A stretch of 64,000 nt of DNA from contig NZ_JAJGMW010000026.1 in assembly GCF_020782115.1 (NCBI RefSeq), positions 1 through 64,000 on the forward strand, read 5' to 3'. The notes beneath the pieces are model-generated. The model saw only the letters and a program-made list of their open reading frames with translations. It was not told the origin of the DNA and searched no databases. This document shows positions 26,120 to 42,883 of this stretch, piece after piece. Every line of letters starts with the position of its first letter. The stretch's first letter is position 1. This stretch comes from Leeuwenhoekiella parthenopeia (GTDB taxonomy: Bacteria > Bacteroidota > Bacteroidia > Flavobacteriales > Flavobacteriaceae). The position numbers were made by a program, and so were the translations under genes.

Positions 26120-27001
26120 TCACCCTTCCTCCTGTCGCATCTTATACTCCAGTTTTAAGATAAGTTCTTCCAGGAACTTTGTTCTGCTCCCCTTCCGGGC
26201 TTTGATCTTGCCATAGGTCTTATAGACCCCATCCAGTTTGATGTTGAAGAAATCTTCAAAGGAAGCGACCAGCGTACTCAGGTCAGACAAACCATGGTTT
26301 AGGTTTTGAGAAGCATACAGGGCATAAATGAGTTCGACCAGCGCAGTCTTAGAACCAGACCACAGCATCACCGGGTGTTTTTGAGGGAGAAAGGCCGCTT
26401 CACTCCCCGGGTTGAGCGCACTTAGGGCATCGCGTACATAGTGAATCAGACGGTACATCGCCTGTACCTTGGCCCAAAGCATATCGTGCGAACTGCTAAA
26501 CTCGGGATAATCGTAATAGTGAATCACCGGGGTAAACGGAAAGTTTTGCTGGGCATTTCGGGTAAAAAACTGATGATCCAGATAGGTATGCCCCTGCTCC
26601 ATATACTGTACAAAATCCATATTCCGATGAAAGAATTTATTGATCTTACGCAGTTCCTTCTTGTAAAAGCGGGTCTGGAAAGAAGCCCCCGCTTTGGGTT
26701 TGCGCACCTCACAGGAGCGCATTTCAGAAAAGTAAATCAGGTAACTCATAGGGCAGGGCTTGAGGTGTTTGAAGAAGTTGATCTCCTGAGGCACATCTTC
26801 AAAATCTTCCTGCTCCACCAGCTCCTTTAATCGGGCAAGTGTTTTTGCAGCAACTTCGATCCCCAGTTCTGCTTTTTTAAGGGCTTCGGGCACTACCATA
26901 ACCCGTGCATTTAAATCATCGTGAAAGTGTTGTATCGCTGCAGTAAACATGGACGCATCTGTAAAACAAGTGAGAACATCGTGAGGCAAATGTAAAGGCA
27001 A
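26120..27001 (-). CDS. RteC-family protein
   Basis: 293 residues, the normal RteC size. Recognisable features are INFFKHLKPCPMSYLIYFSEMRSCE, FYKKELRKINKFFHRNMDFVQYM, DHQFFTRN and, near the C-terminus, MLWSGSKTALVELIYALYASQ followed by a winged-helix-like DFFNIKLDGVYKTYGKIKARKGSRTKFLEEL. In Bacteroides, RteC activates excision genes of tetracycline conjugative transposons. Here no transposon genes are adjacent, and chromosomal RteC homologues of unknown target are common in Flavobacteria. The start may instead be the Met at residue 18 (26950), as RteC proteins usually lack the preceding 17 residues. It lies 42 bases past the aminotransferase stop and could be cotranscribed with it. Confidence 0.8.
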   Translation of the reverse strand: MPLHLPHDVLTCFTDASMFTAAIQHFHDDLNARVMVVPEALKKAELGIEVAAKTLARLKELVEQEDFEDVPQEINFFKHLKPCPMSYLIYFSEMRSCEVRKPKAGASFQTRFYKKELRKINKFFHRNMDFVQYMEQGHTYLDHQFFTRNAQQNFPFTPVIHYYDYPEFSSSHDMLWAKVQAMYRLIHYVRDALSALNPGSEAAFLPQKHPVMLWSGSKTALVELIYALYASQNLNHGLSDLSTLVASFEDFFNIKLDGVYKTYGKIKARKGSRTKFLEELILKLEYKMRQEEG

Positions 27002-27043: not shown

Positions 27044-29449
27044 TTATCGAGTGGTGCGCATCATTTCGAGTTGCTCCAAAAGAAAATTATCATCGGTTTG
27101 CACAAATGCTTGTTTAGGGATTAGGCTTGCTCCCAGTTTTCGCTTTTCAAAATTGGCACTCATACCAAAATCAATACGTTTCATATAGAGTTTCCGTGCC
27201 CTTAAAATACTTTGATAGAGGAGCTGCCTGTAGGTTTGAAACCCATTCAGATACCGGTAATCCATTCCGATGAGGCTGGGTATATAGGTGCCGGAATAAT
27301 TAATATAGCAAAACATTATGCCTAGTAACCGGCCGTCATCAACAGCTTTGAGCACTATAAACTCCCAGTTGGGATGGGTACGCATTGCCTCAAATACCTC
27401 AGGCGGATAGGTAAAGGTATTTAGACCGTAATTCTTTGCTTTAACCTGTAAATACAGGTCGTAATAGCGCTTAATGTTCTTACTGCTCACCCTTTTAAGC
27501 ACTCGGCACGTAACGAGATTCAGATAAGGTTCTATATCTTTTTTAAAATGCTTTTGGGAACGTTTGGAAAGATAATGGAAATAGTCTTCTCCCATTTTGT
27601 CGTGCAAGTCCTGTAATACACAGGATTCGGGCATGTCAATCGGTATATAGCCCTGATCTTGAATAATTTTAGACCATTTGTAATTCAGGTCAAAATCACG
27701 CAATACGGTCATGGAAACCTTCCAGTCATGAGCAAGGTTTTCGATGTACTCCAGTAATTGCGTTAAAGCCAATTCTACCTGAGGATGTTCTTCATTGAGA
27801 TAGAGATGGTTTCCTTCGGTAAATAAACTGCCCAGAGAAAGCACCCGGGAGGTCTGTAGATAGGGTTCGGCTTCGCGTTGTTTCTCCAGCTCCCGGGATA
27901 CCGAAGCCGGAGCCAGCATATCGTTTTTCCATAGGCTTTCGGTTAAAAAGGTCATCAGGACCGGGCAGTTGGCATCATCCACGATTTGTACATATTTAAA
28001 GCGCCAGTTATGCTCCCGTTCTTTAACCTGTTTAAAGCTTTCTTCCAGAAAACGGAGCCCCTCCTGATCCAGCATATTTGTTCTTCCTATGTTAGAATTC
28101 CAATGATAGTAATCGGTGTCAGCGATGGTTTCAAATTCCTGCAGTTGTAATTCATAATTACTATTGGCAAAAGGCTTTGGATCTTTAAAATCCATTCGGA
28201 AGGCTTTACCTACCCTGGATCGGGAATTGTGCGTGGCCATCAGGGCAAAATCATAATGGGTCAATAATTGCACCACCAGATGATCTATATCGTCAAAGGC
28301 ATTGTGATTTGAGAGGGTAATCCGAAGCCCGGTATTTTTGGCAGGGACTGCGGGAAACAGGCCCAGATTTACATAGATACCCTCCTCCATCAGGCGTTTA
28401 ACGAGAAAATAGCCGCTGGCCGGCAGGCCGGTACCTATGTAAAATACTGGTGAACTGTTGCGGGCAATGAGCGGTAAATGGGCTTCAGCAAGCTGCTGAT
28501 TGAAATAATCAATTCGGGATTTAAGCGCATCCTGAAGGCAATAGATCTCGTCTGATAAATGAATTTTTGCCGAAGCGATGGCTGCTCCCACAGCACTGGG
28601 CTCTAACTGGGCAGAAAAGGTTAGGGGCCCTCCAAAGTTTTTAATTTGATGATAAAACTTTTTATTGGAACAGACCAGTACAGAGCCCGATGCCCCGAAA
28701 GTTTTGCTCAGGGTTCCAAAAACCAAAACGTTTTCGGGCAGGGTCTCCAGCTGGCTCATCACATACCCCATGCCATGCCGGCCTCTCCAGCTCATCCCAT
28801 GCACATCATCAAAATAGAGGTGCAATTGCGGGTATTTTCTGGAGAGTTCCAGCAGTTCTTTAACCGGGGCATAGTCACCAAACATAGAATAGACCCCATC
28901 TGCCATATACCAGATTTTAGATACTTTAGATGAAAGTTTTTGAATTAAGCTTTCCAGGAAATCCAGATTATTGTGACGTATCAGTTGTACCGGGATGCCT
29001 CTTACCTTTAGAAGTTGGGCTGCATTTTGCACGCTCCAGTGCACCTGATGATCCAGGATCACCGCATCCTCATCGCGAACCACGGTGGGGATCACTGCCA
29101 AATGCCCAAGCGTACTGTTTTTGGTGATGATCACCGGGTTTTCAAAGAGCAGCTCCAGCTTTTCTTCGAGTTCCTCATACAGCGGATGAGAGATGTAGGT
29201 TTTCGATAACGGAAATTGGGTCCCATAGCGCAGAATAGCCTGCATAGCTCCTGTTTTGAGCCGGCTGTCCTGCTCAAGACCCAGGTAACCGGTATTACCA
29301 AAATGATAACAGGCTTTCCCTTTGACAGTAAGAACCCGGCCTGTAAATCGCTTATCCTCGGCACGTAGATGTACAATACCTTCAGCCTTAGCTTCGGTGA
29401 TTACTTTGTCAACCGTATCCAGAAAATGGTTGTGTTTTATTTGAGCCAT
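27044..29449 (-). CDS. Alpha-oxoamine-synthase-like PLP enzyme fused to a GNAT/BioF2-like acyltransferase
   Basis: 801 residues in two parts. Residues 1-400 are a class I/II PLP enzyme of the oxoamine synthase type (BioF, KBL, CqsA, serine palmitoyltransferase): HPLYEELEEKLE, YFDDVHGMSWRGRHG with Asp/His at 214-217, and Lys249 in GTLSKTFGASGS as the Schiff-base lysine. Residues about 410-801 are a GNAT-like domain of the BioF2/FemX sort (SKRSQKHFKKDIEPYL, YDLYLQVKAKNYGLN, IDFGMSANFEKRKLGA). Such synthases join an acyl-CoA to an amino acid; the second domain could N-acylate the product, giving a sphingoid- or sulfonolipid-like molecule, or a signal. That activity is inferred. It is divergent from the STAS-like/AraC genes across a region with four operator-like repeats. 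Confidence 0.8.
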   Translation of the reverse strand: MAQIKHNHFLDTVDKVITEAKAEGIVHLRAEDKRFTGRVLTVKGKACYHFGNTGYLGLEQDSRLKTGAMQAILRYGTQFPLSKTYISHPLYEELEEKLELLFENPVIITKNSTLGHLAVIPTVVRDEDAVILDHQVHWSVQNAAQLLKVRGIPVQLIRHNNLDFLESLIQKLSSKVSKIWYMADGVYSMFGDYAPVKELLELSRKYPQLHLYFDDVHGMSWRGRHGMGYVMSQLETLPENVLVFGTLSKTFGASGSVLVCSNKKFYHQIKNFGGPLTFSAQLEPSAVGAAIASAKIHLSDEIYCLQDALKSRIDYFNQQLAEAHLPLIARNSSPVFYIGTGLPASGYFLVKRLMEEGIYVNLGLFPAVPAKNTGLRITLSNHNAFDDIDHLVVQLLTHYDFALMATHNSRSRVGKAFRMDFKDPKPFANSNYELQLQEFETIADTDYYHWNSNIGRTNMLDQEGLRFLEESFKQVKEREHNWRFKYVQIVDDANCPVLMTFLTESLWKNDMLAPASVSRELEKQREAEPYLQTSRVLSLGSLFTEGNHLYLNEEHPQVELALTQLLEYIENLAHDWKVSMTVLRDFDLNYKWSKIIQDQGYIPIDMPESCVLQDLHDKMGEDYFHYLSKRSQKHFKKDIEPYLNLVTCRVLKRVSSKNIKRYYDLYLQVKAKNYGLNTFTYPPEVFEAMRTHPNWEFIVLKAVDDGRLLGIMFCYINYSGTYIPSLIGMDYRYLNGFQTYRQLLYQSILRARKLYMKRIDFGMSANFEKRKLGASLIPKQAFVQTDDNFLLEQLEMMRTTR

Positions 29450-29533
29450 AGCAATAAAGTTTGGTTAATTCATATCGAAACTAATCAATTAATAAAAAGC
29501 TCATTACCAGCCCCTAAGCTTCACCCCCAAAAT

Positions 29534-29575
29534 AATCCCTTATACTATACTTTAAATCCCTTATACTATAGTCCT
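29534..29575. promoter_or_regulatory. Operator-like direct repeat pair I (21-bp spacing)
   Basis: Two half-sites AATCCCT-N4-CTAT begin at 29534 and 29555, exactly 21 bases apart. They lie 85 bases upstream of the aminotransferase-fusion start (29449) and upstream of pair II. The 21-base repeat distance puts both on one face of the helix, as for AraC-type dimers or LytTR proteins. The AraC-type gene at 30113 is the obvious candidate binder. Confidence 0.7.
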
Positions 29576-29594
29576 TCAGCTGGCGTGCCCGAAT

Positions 29595-29636
29595 AATCCC
29601 TAACACTATACTTTAAATCCCTCAAACCATACTTTA
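29595..29636 (+). promoter_or_regulatory. Operator-like direct repeat pair II (21-bp spacing)
   Basis: Half-sites begin at 29595 (AATCCCTAACACTAT) and 29616 (AATCCCTCAAACCAT), again 21 bases apart. The pair ends about 38 bases before a possible minus-7 element TACTTTTA (29674-29681) and 66 bases before the STAS-like gene, a usual position for an activator next to the promoter. Confidence 0.7.
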
Positions 29637-29702
29637 CCCCGCATAGAGGTAACCAAACAATCGGTCTTTTTAATACTTTTAGTTCGTCTAAAACTATTCA
29701 TC

Positions 29703-30101
29703 ATGCCACGGTATCATAAAAACCCGTATGCTGAATATCGGATTGAAGCGGGAATCCTCTTTTTATACTACAAACCCCAAAGCTGCCTATCCCTACAAAT
29801 AGCTAAAAAGGTTGTACAAGATCGTCTGCGATTTCAAATGAATACCTCGTATCCGGTATACTGCGACGTTAGAGAACTAATAGATTCTACCAAAGAAGCG
29901 AGGGACTATCTTATACGGGAGGGTTCTGCTTCAACCCTTGCCATAGCTTTTCACGTCAACAGAGGGCTCACCGAAAGTATGGTCAGATTTTATCTCAAAC
30001 GCAGGGAAACCCATATTGAAACCCGCCTCTTTTATGAAATGGAACCCGCACTGGAGTTTCTTAAAACCTATCGGAACCCTAAACACCCAAGGAAGAATTA
30101 A
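29703..30101 (+). CDS. Small STAS/SpoIIAA-like protein (DUF7793 type)
   Basis: 132 residues without signal peptide. The pattern of short strand, FLYYKPQSCLSLQIAKKVVQDRLR helix, YPVYCDVRELIDSTKEARDYLIREGS and then ALAFHV-like IAFHVNRGLTESMVRFYLK is that of the STAS-like DUF7793 proteins found next to Bacteroidota regulators; the phosphorylatable serine of true anti-anti-sigma factors is not obvious. It is followed after 11 bases by the AraC-type regulator, so the two form an operon under operator pair II. A role as partner or modulator of that regulator is inferred. Confidence 0.6.
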   Translation: MPRYHKNPYAEYRIEAGILFLYYKPQSCLSLQIAKKVVQDRLRFQMNTSYPVYCDVRELIDSTKEARDYLIREGSASTLAIAFHVNRGLTESMVRFYLKRRETHIETRLFYEMEPALEFLKTYRNPKHPRKN

Positions 30102-30112
30102 CACGATCAGCT

Positions 30113-31015
30113 ATGGAACATATTGATGCACGAGCCGAAGAAATCAAGAAGATGATACTTAAAATGGGAGCTGGAAATTTCAGCTACCGCATACCGCGCA
30201 GCGCTGAAAATACGCAGACTGAATCCATTATTGCCCTGCTCAACATGCTGGCACAGGAGTTTGAGGTAGCCTACAACCCGTTTTTCGGAACTTCTCCGTT
30301 TACGACCATAACCCGGGTAAAGCATTATATATTTATGCTCGACCAGCAGTACCGTATTTTACAAACCAACTTTGATGCAGATAATGACCGGGTGCTTGAG
30401 AAGCAAAACTTTTTAAACCTCCTCTCTCCTGCTTCTCAGGAGGTATTTCAAAAGCTATTGAAGACTCCTAAAAAAAAGGGTAAAACACTTAACGGTCAAT
30501 TGGAATTAAAAGCAGGTAAAAAATTACTAATGCCACTTAATTGTAGCGTGTTTCCTTTGCGAGCATTTCATCCTGATTCAGGCCTTTTGGTAGTACTAAG
30601 CCGTATTCAAACCTTAAATCCCTTACTTCACGGTAAACAGCAGGAGAAGCAGGAATATCCTGTCCAGCAATTAAAAATACTAAAAAGCTCCGAGGATATC
30701 CATAAGTTTAGAGAAATAGCGGTCTATCTTCATAAGCATCTCGACAGACCTCTGGGCTCCTTAAAAGAAATTGCGTCTGCGTTTAACATCAACGAATTTA
30801 AACTTAAAAAAGGCTTTAAGGAATTACATCAGACCACGGTATTTAAATACCATCTTCAACTGCGCCTAAGCCTGGCTATGCAACTGGTTTTAGACACCTC
30901 AGACCAACTTGCCAGTATCGCCTGGAAAACTGGATTTAAAAACTACGACCATTTTGCTCAGGCTTTTAAACGAGAATTTGGAGTCGCCCCAAGCCATTAT
31001 CGAAAACAGAAATAA
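30113..31015 (+). CDS. AraC-family transcription regulator with HAMP/PAS-like N-terminus
   Basis: 300 residues. The N-terminus (GAGNFSYRIPRSAENTQTESIIALLNMLAQEFE) resembles a HAMP-type linker, and residues about 60-170 look like a PAS domain (YIFMLDQQYRILQTN). The C-terminal 100 residues are an AraC/XylS double helix-turn-helix: LKEIASAFNINEFKLKKGFKELHQTTVFKYHLQLRL and LASIAWKTGFKNYDHFAQAFKREFGVAPSHYRKQ. No membrane segment is seen, so the signal is probably sensed in the cytoplasm or through the STAS-like partner. The stop codon overlaps the start of operator pair III, and pairs I and II flank its operon, which points to local regulation including autoregulation. Confidence 0.87.
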   Translation: MEHIDARAEEIKKMILKMGAGNFSYRIPRSAENTQTESIIALLNMLAQEFEVAYNPFFGTSPFTTITRVKHYIFMLDQQYRILQTNFDADNDRVLEKQNFLNLLSPASQEVFQKLLKTPKKKGKTLNGQLELKAGKKLLMPLNCSVFPLRAFHPDSGLLVVLSRIQTLNPLLHGKQQEKQEYPVQQLKILKSSEDIHKFREIAVYLHKHLDRPLGSLKEIASAFNINEFKLKKGFKELHQTTVFKYHLQLRLSLAMQLVLDTSDQLASIAWKTGFKNYDHFAQAFKREFGVAPSHYRKQK

Positions 31016-31055
31016 TCCCTCAGGCTATTCTTTTAATCCTCAGGACTAGAATAAG
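31014..31055 (+). promoter_or_regulatory. Operator-like direct repeat pair III (21-bp spacing)
   Basis: Half-sites begin at 31014 (AATCCCTCAGGCTAT) and 31035 (AATCCTCAGGACTAG, one C shorter), 21 bases apart as in pairs I and II. It overlaps the regulator stop codon and lies about 32 bases before the MauE-like gene start (31087), suggesting that gene belongs to the same regulon. Confidence 0.6.
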
Positions 31056-31086
31056 ATAGATGAACTTTACCCTATAAAGTTTCATC

Positions 31087-32583
31087 ATGATAAAAGTAGG
31101 TTTCATAAAACAGGGGTTAAGTAAAGTAGCAGTGAGCTTCTTTATCCTGCTCTGGGTATATGCGGCTACCGCCAAGTTGCTCGAGTTTGAGCAGTTCAGG
31201 GTACAGCTGGGCCAGTCTCCTATACTCGCTACCTATGCCGGAATGTTAGTTTGGCTGGTACCATTCTGTGAATATATTTTGACCCTACTTTTGGCTATCC
31301 CTAAATATCGTACAGTAGGACTGTTCGGGAGCTTTACGCTTATGAGCGCCTTTACCGCATATATCATCATCATTCTCAATTACGCCGACTATATACCCTG
31401 CTCCTGTGGGGGTATTTTAGAATACCTGGGCTGGACGGAGCATTTGATTTTTAACGGGGTTTGTATGCTCTTGGCTGCGACTACTTTCTTTATAGGTTCA
31501 TATCAGGGCAAGGGTGATAGAACAAATAAATTCTATAGCATTGTAAAAATCGGTTCAGCCCTTTTTGGGAGTACGATTCTGGTCACCCTGTTATTTGTAA
31601 CCTCAGAACAACAAATACATCGTAATAACGCTTTTGTCCGCCGCTATCCGCAACATGTTGCCAGGCAGCAAACCAAATTTGATCTGGGATTTAACTCTTA
31701 CTATATTGCCGGCATTACAAAAGACTCTATCTATTTAGGGAATGTTACTGCACCGTTACACCTGCTCGCGATGGATGCCACGCTTCAGGACACGGTGCTC
31801 CATCGGTTGGATATTCCTGATATGGAGAAGTATTCCTTCCGCTCCTTAAGAGTACAGGTATTAGATAAACGCTATTACCTGAGTGATGGAAGTGTACCGG
31901 TGATATTTACAGATACCCTGGGAGCGTGGAGCCCAGCGATAGTGTTAAAAGACCAATTCACCTTTTACAAAATGGTGCCTATGGGAGTTTCAACTTTTGG
32001 AGTACTTACTGCAAACGCAGATACAGGAGAACATGAGTTGGGTCTTCTTCAGTTTAAAGATTCCGCATCATTTAAGATAGCTCCACAATTATTAGAGAAA
32101 CAGATAGATGGCATTTTTGATGTAGATGGCTTCTTGCAGTATAACCCAGGTCTAAAAAAACTTTTGTATGTCTATCGGTATCGCAATGAGTTTTTGGTAA
32201 TGGGTGATGAGCTTGAGCTGCTTTATCGAGGTAAAACCATTGATACCTTAACTAAAGCCCAGCTGGATATTGCTACGAGCAGTAATACATTAAAAATCGG
32301 TCCTAAATCCATTGCAGTGAATCTTAATGCGGCTACCGCAGGAAAATATCTGTTCATTAGTTCAGACCGCTTAGGACGATATGAACCTGCAGAAATGCTT
32401 GATGAAGCAAGTATTATAGATGTTTATGATCTACAGGATAAGAGCTATGTACTTAGTTTTTACCTATATGATCATAATGGACATTCCATAAGGAACTTTA
32501 TAGTAAAAGATGATAAACTCTACGCCATATACGATAAGTATTTAATAAAATACACCTTAAAAGCCGATGCTTTTAATATTTAA
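31087..32583 (+). CDS. MauE/DoxX-like membrane protein with large extracytoplasmic C-terminal domain
   Basis: 498 residues. Residues about 12-180 contain five hydrophobic segments with AATAKLLEFEQF after the first, a pattern of the MauE/DoxX redox-associated family, and the loop IPCSCGGIL with Cys105 and Cys107. MauE itself is needed for disulfide formation in methylamine dehydrogenase. Residues about 200-498 form a beta-rich region with repeated strands, probably a propeller, predicted to lie outside the cytoplasm. The DUF6520 peptide gene follows after 88 bases; MauE-type proteins and DUF6520 peptides recur together in Bacteroidota. A role in thiol oxidation of the peptide or of an associated protein is inference. 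Confidence 0.7.
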   Translation: MIKVGFIKQGLSKVAVSFFILLWVYAATAKLLEFEQFRVQLGQSPILATYAGMLVWLVPFCEYILTLLLAIPKYRTVGLFGSFTLMSAFTAYIIIILNYADYIPCSCGGILEYLGWTEHLIFNGVCMLLAATTFFIGSYQGKGDRTNKFYSIVKIGSALFGSTILVTLLFVTSEQQIHRNNAFVRRYPQHVARQQTKFDLGFNSYYIAGITKDSIYLGNVTAPLHLLAMDATLQDTVLHRLDIPDMEKYSFRSLRVQVLDKRYYLSDGSVPVIFTDTLGAWSPAIVLKDQFTFYKMVPMGVSTFGVLTANADTGEHELGLLQFKDSASFKIAPQLLEKQIDGIFDVDGFLQYNPGLKKLLYVYRYRNEFLVMGDELELLYRGKTIDTLTKAQLDIATSSNTLKIGPKSIAVNLNAATAGKYLFISSDRLGRYEPAEMLDEASIIDVYDLQDKSYVLSFYLYDHNGHSIRNFIVKDDKLYAIYDKYLIKYTLKADAFNI

Positions 32584-32671: not shown

Positions 32672-32947
32672 ATGAAAAATGTACAAAGAAAACTGATTTT
32701 ACCAGCTCTGGTAATGGGGTTGGGTGTTTTTGGAGCTTTCGTGAGTACTGCGCATACTGCAGCTACCTTTGCTCCGGAAATTGGTTATGTAGAGAACGAT
32801 CAACCTTGTGACACGCCAGTAAGTTGTGATACATCAGGGGAGGAATTGTGTACTCTTGTGATCAATGACCAGGAGCAAATTGCAAGAGGGAAATTAACGC
32901 CCGTAAGTGATTGTACTGTACCACTTTTTAGACCGGTGCAAAATTAA
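32672..32947 (+). CDS. DUF6520-family exported cysteine-containing small protein
   Basis: 91 residues. N-terminal KKLILPALVMGLGVFGAF-like signal (RKLILPALVMGLGVFGAF) ending near AHTAA, so the mature part is about 60 residues. It has four cysteines at 46, 52, 60 and 81 in the usual DUF6520 arrangement (QPCDTPVSC, GEELCTL, SDCTVPLFRP). No function is established for the family. It sits downstream of the MauE-like gene and ends in a strong terminator, so the pair forms one transcription unit. Even cysteine number and export suggest two disulfides; that is inferred. Confidence 0.75.
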   Translation: MKNVQRKLILPALVMGLGVFGAFVSTAHTAATFAPEIGYVENDQPCDTPVSCDTSGEELCTLVINDQEQIARGKLTPVSDCTVPLFRPVQN

Positions 32948-42354: not shown

Positions 42355-42883
42355 ACCAACTGCTTTCTAAATCTGAATACAGAATGAAGAACGCAGAATT
42401 TGCTTTTAAACTTTGAATTAAACTGCAACCTCAATCAGATGTGATTTCTCGTCGCTTTAGGCTCCTTCGAAATGACTGAAACTGCCCACTGAGACTGCCC
42501 ACTAATTCTCAACGCAGAATGAAGAGTTCGATGGTATTATTCAATTCTGTCTACTCTTTTCTCTCTGTTCTTTACTCTTTGTTCTCTTTTCAAAAACAAA
42601 ACGCACTCGTGACTCCGAACTCAGAACTTTGAACTGATTTCGTATTTCTAATTTTTCGGAACCCTGAGTGATGAGACCCTGGGAGCATCTAATCGAAGCA
42701 AAGGGCTGGGGATGGATGTAATCCAGTCCGGAATGCAGAATGAAGAGTTTTTTTGAATTTTAAACTTGGAACCTTGAACTGAACTCTGAAAACTGCTGAC
42801 TGAGACTCCTACTAATTCAGAACTCTGCACGGCCAACCTGAGCCTGTCGAAGGTACAGTCGACAAGCGAGCGTAGTCGAGAAG

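Follow-up and report, generated by a model that had tools for sequence, protein, structure and literature searches.

Activators of the AraC/XylS type carry a double helix–turn–helix (HTH) at the C-terminus, and some of them recognize direct half-sites spaced by 21 bp, as at I1–I2 of AraC and in the case of XylS. AraC acts both as a repressor and as an activator, and its N-terminal part is an arabinose-binding cupin. For MarA, the accessible portion of PMC6900184 describes binding to the marbox as a monomer, class II sites that lie forward over the −35 region and class I sites that are usually reversed and located about 50–70 bp upstream, with one forward class I site as an exception. The core promoter of Bacteroidota is of the type TTTG/TAnnTTTG, and in F. 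johnsoniae G is almost absent at the variable −7 positions, as in TAGYTTC, according to the part of PMC6847099 available to us. The literature searched contained no paper with DUF6520 or DUF7793 and none on the gene block described here.

The window, i.e. the whole stretch of 64,000 nucleotides of Leeuwenhoekiella parthenopeia DNA that was analysed, contains this block together with three predicted operator pairs around a gene for an AraC-type regulator. The features are as follows.

26120–27001, minus strand: RteC-family protein (PF09357, E = 7.2e-61), adjoining the synthase fusion
27044–29449, minus strand: fusion of an alpha-oxoamine-synthase-like (BioF/SPT) protein with GNAT, divergent from DUF7793
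29476–29483, minus strand: putative −7-like element TAGTTTCG of the synthase promoter, at offset 50 from the edge of pair 1
29534–29575, plus strand: predicted operator pair 1, half-sites 29534 and 29555 (both AATCCCTTATACTAT), spacing 21 bp
29595–29636, plus strand: predicted operator pair 2, exact half-site 29595 and one-mismatch half-site 29616, spacing 21 bp
29703–30101, plus strand: DUF7793 protein (PF25056, E = 1.6e-35) with a SpoIIAA/STAS-like fold, upstream neighbour of the regulator
30113–31015, plus strand: AraC-type regulator with two N-terminal helices, a PAS-like domain and a C-terminal double HTH (HTH_18, HTH_AraC, AlphaFold model, Foldseek)
31014–31055, plus strand: predicted operator pair 3, exact half-site 31014 and degenerate half-site 31035
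31062–31075, plus strand: GAACTTTACC.TAT-like block that probably forms the core promoter of MauE, 27 nt from the first base of the second half-site (column conservation in 26 MauE promoters)
31087–32583, plus strand: membrane protein with a MauE domain and a long extension at its C-terminus (PF07291, E = 2.9e-27)
32672–32947, plus strand: DUF6520 protein of 91 residues (PF20130, E = 3.7e-6)

The locus resembles AraC/XylS-type systems in the double-HTH C-terminus of its regulator and in same-orientation half-sites at 21 bp with two boxes each. It differs from AraC in that the N-terminus is modelled as helices and a PAS-like domain rather than as a cupin, and from AraC/XylS-type systems in the STAS-like gene just upstream of the regulator and in the box sequences. 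With MarA promoters it shares forward sites over the −33 region (before MauE) and backward sites about 50–62 bp from the putative start (at the synthase). Unlike MarA, described as one monomer per marbox in the accessible portion of PMC6900184, it has tandem pairs at 21 bp, and the core promoter expected here is the Bacteroidota TTTG/TAnnTTTG type, as given in the available part of PMC6847099.

Half-sites and pairs in the window

A pattern search of the window locates the half-site AATCCCT-N4-CTAT exactly on the plus strand at 29534, 29555, 29595 and 31014. The half-site at 29616 is AATCCCT-N4-CCAT, with one mismatch, and that at 31035 reads AATCCTCAGGACTAG; it retains AATCC and is absent from the half-site matches with up to two mismatches. 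The first-pass annotation had counted six half-sites: four are exact and a fifth departs by one base, but the sixth (31035) is degenerate. The distance of 21 bases that it gave for each pair is correct for all three, 31035 being in true 21-bp register with 31014 despite its degeneracy. Pairs 1 and 2 share one 253-bp divergent gap between the starts of the synthase (29449, minus strand) and DUF7793 (29703). Pair 3 is found where the regulator gene ends, upstream of MauE (31087), its first half-site overlapping the TAA stop codon (31013–31015). All pairs read towards DUF7793 and MauE and therefore face the synthase backward, which qualifies the earlier placement of a pair before the synthase.

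The genome of the strain (4,418,806 bases in 58 contigs, searched on both strands for the half-site) contains seven exact half-sites, four of them in the window, against two for the backwards control. The longer pattern AATCCCTN4CTATN6AATCC occurs three times with no mismatch (all in the window), never with one and four times with two. Abundance at random sites, which the first-pass annotation had named as evidence against itself, was not seen: the half-site is not scattered genome-wide and perfect pairs are found in the window only. Single half-sites with up to two mismatches show no enrichment in the window (25, shuffle mean 22), so that the signal consists of exact, paired sites. A window-type matrix, built from the half-sites of the window and of L. 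polynyae, scores pairs 1–3 at 52.5, 52.3 and 37.3, values that are high because the matrix was built from these pairs. The best non-overlapping place reaches 6.8 (largest value in 20 mononucleotide shuffles, 10.6). With the family matrix described below, the three pairs score 25.2, 21.3 and 11.4, the last of these lying within the shuffle range (largest 12.8). Besides the window and a paralogous block, six more zero-mismatch ATCCYT-N15-ATCCYT places in this genome were considered and rejected, the surrounding 4-kb stretches (L188–L193) containing no matrix pair of at least 20 bits.

Genes of the block

The regulator scores 72.5 bits with HTH_18 (cut-off 33.6) and 28.5 bits with HTH_AraC (cut-off 26.6), as expected of an AraC/XylS-type double HTH of about 100 residues, and Foldseek matches it to an AraC-type DNA-binding domain with E = 2.8e-7; it falls outside the AraC equivalog (NF007860, 38 against a cut-off of 208). 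Its model has a mean pLDDT of 82.2 and a pTM of 0.50, and the PAS-like domain matches ARNT PAS-B (E = 4.9e-5); Pfam reports neither HAMP nor PAS on the regulator. The N-terminal helices appear HAMP-like, by eye only.

DUF7793 scores 122 bits against a curated cut-off of 26 and belongs to this family. Its model (pLDDT 91.5) has SpoIIAA-like and STAS proteins as best Foldseek matches (2q3l, E = 4.2e-5; 4xs5, TM 0.65/0.71), which indicates a STAS fold at the level of a predicted model. It differs from SpoIIAA, RsbS and STAS proteins in that no conserved serine was found in alignment columns 61–65, none of them having serine in more than 12 of 38 sequences (the value for column 65), and in that its gene adjoins that of an AraC-type regulator rather than of an anti-sigma kinase. 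We take these columns, at the start of the second helix, to be the position of the phosphorylatable serine of SpoIIAA.

The N-terminal 400 residues of the synthase fusion resemble the family of 8-amino-7-oxononanoate synthase (AONS) and serine palmitoyltransferase (SPT) (best PDB matches AONS, E = 2.3e-34, and SPT, E = 7.1e-31). The fusion differs from that family in its C-terminal GNAT domain (Acetyltransf_6) and in scoring below the cut-offs of all 11 NCBIfam families listed (e.g. PRK07505, 267.8 against 342; bioF, 158.9 against 426), so that it is not assigned to the known alpha-oxoamine synthases (AONS, SPT, KBL and CqsA). The DUF6520 protein, as read from its translation, has a hydrophobic N-terminus followed by four cysteines. 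The earlier terms 'lipid-like synthase' and 'exported cysteine peptide' are guesses made from sequence. Genes for an S9 peptidase, SusD and a SusC-type TonB receptor converge on the block in the window.

Conservation of the pairs and the block

Among the 299 genomes of the family that were collected, only that of L. polynyae (G144) is of the same genus. Its regulator is 69% identical to that of the window. At the orthologous locus, tandem sites in 21-bp pairs are again present, four upstream of DUF7793 and two upstream of MauE; the halves of the pair orthologous to pair 3 match each other at 15 of 16 positions. The synthase is missing between RteC and the sites at this locus, while the sites remain, and a second block in L. 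polynyae contains a synthase. The presence of the motif before orthologous genes, on which the first-pass annotation had staked its reading, is seen in L. polynyae at DUF7793 and MauE, but the exact CTAT box is not kept outside the genus; there, most homologous blocks have related 21-bp pairs in the divergent gap and upstream of MauE, as in the window. Predicted versions of the regulator, the sites and the gene block are recurrent in many flavobacteria.

The block was surveyed at 40 loci, comprising the window and 39 further regulator homologues and chosen for the regulator; L092, a MauE locus without the block, was left out of the gene-cluster counts, of the counts of pairs of at least 24 bits and of the 67 pairs of at least 22 bits given below. 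The arrangement RteC–synthase/DUF7793–regulator–MauE–DUF6520 recurs complete or in part, with the synthase at 32 loci, RteC at 32 and MauE at 35, and with 38 DUF7793 proteins across the 40 clustered loci. Not every genome has the block: strong DUF7793 matches (E below 1e-29) come from 35 of the 299 sampled family genomes. Weaker matches extend to further families of the order, with 22 of 296 exceeding the cut-off when the own family is counted.

The 21-bp spacing is apparent without any matrix, as self-similarity of at least 14/17 at this distance in 13 of 30 loci, the window's included, against 0–2 of 30 loci at other distances from 14 to 33. A family matrix derived from 69 gaps (consensus AATCCYTT-N2-AGNYAA) yields 61 pairs of at least 24 bits at 21 bp, compared with 0–2 at each other spacing from 10 to 35, in the promoters from which it was learned. 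After cross-validation there are 58 pairs of at least 22 bits at 21 bp and 0–3 at other spacings (12–32), in a set that consists of homologues. At 70 loci outside the training set (ten of 80 having been dropped for overlap with the first set), 113 pairs are spaced at 21 bp and 0–3 at other spacings (14–29), these loci likewise being homologues, near-identical members included. DUF7793 was called in 68 of them and MauE in 63; 20 bits is reached in 54 of the 68 DUF7793 gaps and 32 of the 63 MauE gaps, and the score stays below this value in 14 and 31, respectively. Many low-scoring gaps show diverged boxes, for instance in Flavobacterium and Lutibacter. The 40 loci of the first survey hold 67 pairs of at least 22 bits, 53 before DUF7793 or MauE and 14 elsewhere; 11 of these 14 come from two genomes of one genus with a larger regulon (L073, L082).

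As a pattern, the 21-bp family pair matched 50 of 299 genomes, with 19 zero-mismatch places in 13 genomes; the control with 20-bp spacing matched 27 of 299, with one zero-mismatch place. Each of the 13 genomes in which the 21-bp pattern occurs perfectly also contains a strong DUF7793 match (E below 1e-29), a co-occurrence that is partly circular because the pattern was derived from block-bearing genomes. Tandem direct half-sites at 21 bp, a feature of some members of the AraC/XylS type, are present here.

Recognition of the sites

Covariation between boxes and regulators was analysed for 34 regulators, leaving out multi-regulator loci, loci without a pair of at least 10 bits and L089/L090, and then for 92 (eight near-identical ones of 100 having been dropped). 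In both sets, with N-terminal divergence removed, box A distance tracks HTH1 best and box B distance tracks HTH2 best. With the other HTH also removed (n = 92), r is 0.23 for box A–HTH1 and 0.18 for box B–HTH2 (both p = 0.001); the cross-terms are also positive, at 0.15 (p = 0.004) and 0.12 (p = 0.02), and the relatedness of the compared regulators is removed only in part by the partial Mantel test, which uses their N-terminal portion. The 20 strongest couplings include some between half-site positions 11–15 and residues 277, 279, 280 and 284, which lie within or immediately before the second recognition helix (modelled as 278–289). Residues 237, 240 and 247 of HTH1 also couple strongly with position 11, and 220 and 241 with position 15. 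The pair is still present at regulator loci in which DUF7793 was not detected (L093, L206 and L207). Taken as sequence evidence, the rarity of the pairs, the orthologous sites and the covariation of boxes with HTHs support the earlier proposal that an adjacent AraC-type protein binds there, and the 21-bp pairs are very probably the operator of this regulator.

Promoter geometry and mode of action

Before MauE, 26 of 32 gaps have a pair of at least 10 bits, and their consensus contains the element GAACTTTACC.TAT, which some promoters lack. Because this element begins 27 nt past the first base of the second half-site, that half-site would lie over the −33 region. At the synthase, where the pair is reversed, the offset of the best −7-like match is 38/39 in 12 of 31 loci and 49/50 in 8 of 31, one helical turn apart; on the DUF7793 side it is 76–79 in 11 of 35 loci and 65–67 in 5 of 35, all of these being raw counts of weak elements, with related loci counted separately and no shuffle control. 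The window is outside the main group on the DUF7793 side, with an offset of 119 from pair 1. A conserved CCAGTTTTC element is seen shortly before the start of DUF7793 at L062, L063, L065, L066, L068, L069, L074, L075, L083, L085 and L091.

We consider it highly probable that the pairs serve as operators of the regulator, class II at MauE and class I at the synthase, with two regulator molecules per 21-bp pair. This explanation draws on sequence, conservation, spacing, covariation and geometry, with binding, activation in preference to repression, the start sites, the role of DUF7793 and the signal as its inferred parts. HTH1 would read box A (AATCCCT) and HTH2 would read box B (CTAT in the window, mostly AGNYAA-like in relatives), with two molecules bound next to each other at a distance of two helical turns. 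At MauE, the forward pair over the −33 region would recruit RNA polymerase in the class II manner, and at the synthase the backward pair, about 50–62 bp upstream of the putative start, would act in the class I manner. The pairs in the divergent gap would probably also feed back on the DUF7793–regulator operon, and the DUF7793 partner, the N-terminal helices of the regulator and its PAS-like domain would presumably set the activity of the regulator.

The pairs might instead be a product of chance or a selfish or structural DNA repeat, given that short AT-rich intergenic repeats are common and that near-matches exist elsewhere (the four pairs at two mismatches), but the sharp 21-bp peak in two data sets, the recurrent positions and orientation and the covariation of the boxes make such an origin exceedingly improbable. 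Nor do we think it at all likely that another protein of the block (RteC family or DUF7793) or an unlinked regulator binds the pairs, with the AraC-type protein as a mere neighbour. RteC (32 of 40 loci) and DUF7793 (38 proteins at the same 40) do travel with the block, at loci that were chosen for the regulator. Against their binding stand the box-specific covariation with HTH1 and HTH2, the persistence of pairs at regulator loci without detected DUF7793, the SpoIIAA/STAS-like fold modelled for DUF7793 and the suitability of 21-bp direct repeats for AraC-type binding.

A different question is whether the regulator, once bound to the pairs, represses or switches both ways, with the pairs of the divergent gap being mainly autoregulatory. 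This is a variant of the mode of action within the operator explanation, and the likelihoods given to the two overlap. AraC itself does both. Two pairs occupy the divergent gap of the window and likewise that of the orthologous locus of L. polynyae, where they are retained in the absence of the synthase. We nevertheless find this variant rather unlikely, since a forward site by a poor MauE −7 element and a backward site 50–62 bp from the synthase correspond to activator positions of MarA as set out in the accessible portion of PMC6900184. The reading as class II and class I activator sites is the one that we prefer.

Regulon, paralogous block and mobility

In the genome of the strain, window-type sites mark only the window block, in line with the 'compact regulon' of the first-pass annotation; other genomes have a larger regulon. 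A paralogous block on contig 1 (G000, L056:7051–11937) contains a synthase, DUF7793, regulator, MauE and DUF6520. Its regulator is 37% identical to that of the window and its box B differs; its sites score 41.1 and 30.0 with the family matrix, against 8.3 and 4.8 with the window-type matrix. Judging from these sequences, the two systems look insulated from each other by box B.

A gene for a protein of 82 residues has homologues in 7 of 299 genomes. In three of them it is located 16–29 kb from the block and is preceded by a reverse pair 79–89 bp before its start (G240:C2:827277, G125:C1:1055006 and G083:C3:45376; L298–L300); an in-frame stop interrupts the G083 match. In G017 the pair is found downstream of the gene, and the more distant copy in G162 has no pair. 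Pairs in G248 precede genes for two TonB receptors, a β-barrel protein, M14 and trypsin-like peptidases with a secretion-sorting tail, DUF6520 and MauE. Genus g20 (L073, L082, L200–L203 and L215–L217) has a much enlarged set of pairs, standing upstream of genes for TonB receptors, secreted peptidases, DUF6520 and MauE, and several of its operator pairs have no clear open frame nearby.

The 40 clustered loci include a SusC-type receptor in 37, SusD in 32, an HTH_17 protein in 23 (Pfam assignment from one member of the cluster) and, also in 23, a P-loop ATPase-like protein (assigned by eye, with no Pfam match). The last two clusters hint at mobile elements in some genomes. In G240, a gene for a VirD4-like coupling protein (by eye) adjoins the 82-residue gene about 25 kb from the block. 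Carriage on a conjugative element was not adopted as a general rule, the single VirD4-like protein tested having no match in the window, and a plasmid search returned no record covering 80% of the regulator.

Implications

As far as our searches show, the mechanism is of a known kind, and the architecture of the regulator and the regulon are new. The pairs provide a readable regulatory code for a recurrent and almost undescribed gene block, from which members of the regulon can be predicted in flavobacteria with known genome sequences. Because box B covaries with HTH2, straightforward swaps in laboratory strains could test whether paralogous AraC-type regulators switch their specificity.

We further conjecture, as a doubtful proposal when all of its steps are taken together, that the block acts in Flavobacteriaceae as a self-contained signalling circuit which moves laterally. 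The BioF–GNAT fusion would make a small alpha-oxoamine signal, which the PAS-like domain of the regulator, gated by the STAS partner, would sense. The regulator would then switch on its own synthase and the MauE redox protein, by which the DUF6520 peptide with its cysteines would be matured. It would also switch on the processing or re-uptake of this peptide by way of the linked peptidase and SusC/SusD genes. Paralogous circuits in one cell would be kept apart by changes in box B that co-evolve with HTH2. If the synthase does make the inducer, this would be new signalling chemistry in Bacteroidota.

Other repeats were also observed. Low-complexity tandem repeats of the CTCTTTGTTCTCTG type occur in the window at 42550 and 43708. 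A tandem array of about 21-bp units of the ACCGCAAACAGGGTTGTATGG type (L064:4487–4860, G297) is unlike the operators, as is a TGTCAGTCTGAGCTTGTCGAA-like unit with a 21-bp repeat, which is dispersed (window 40130, L057:18394 and L058:19676).
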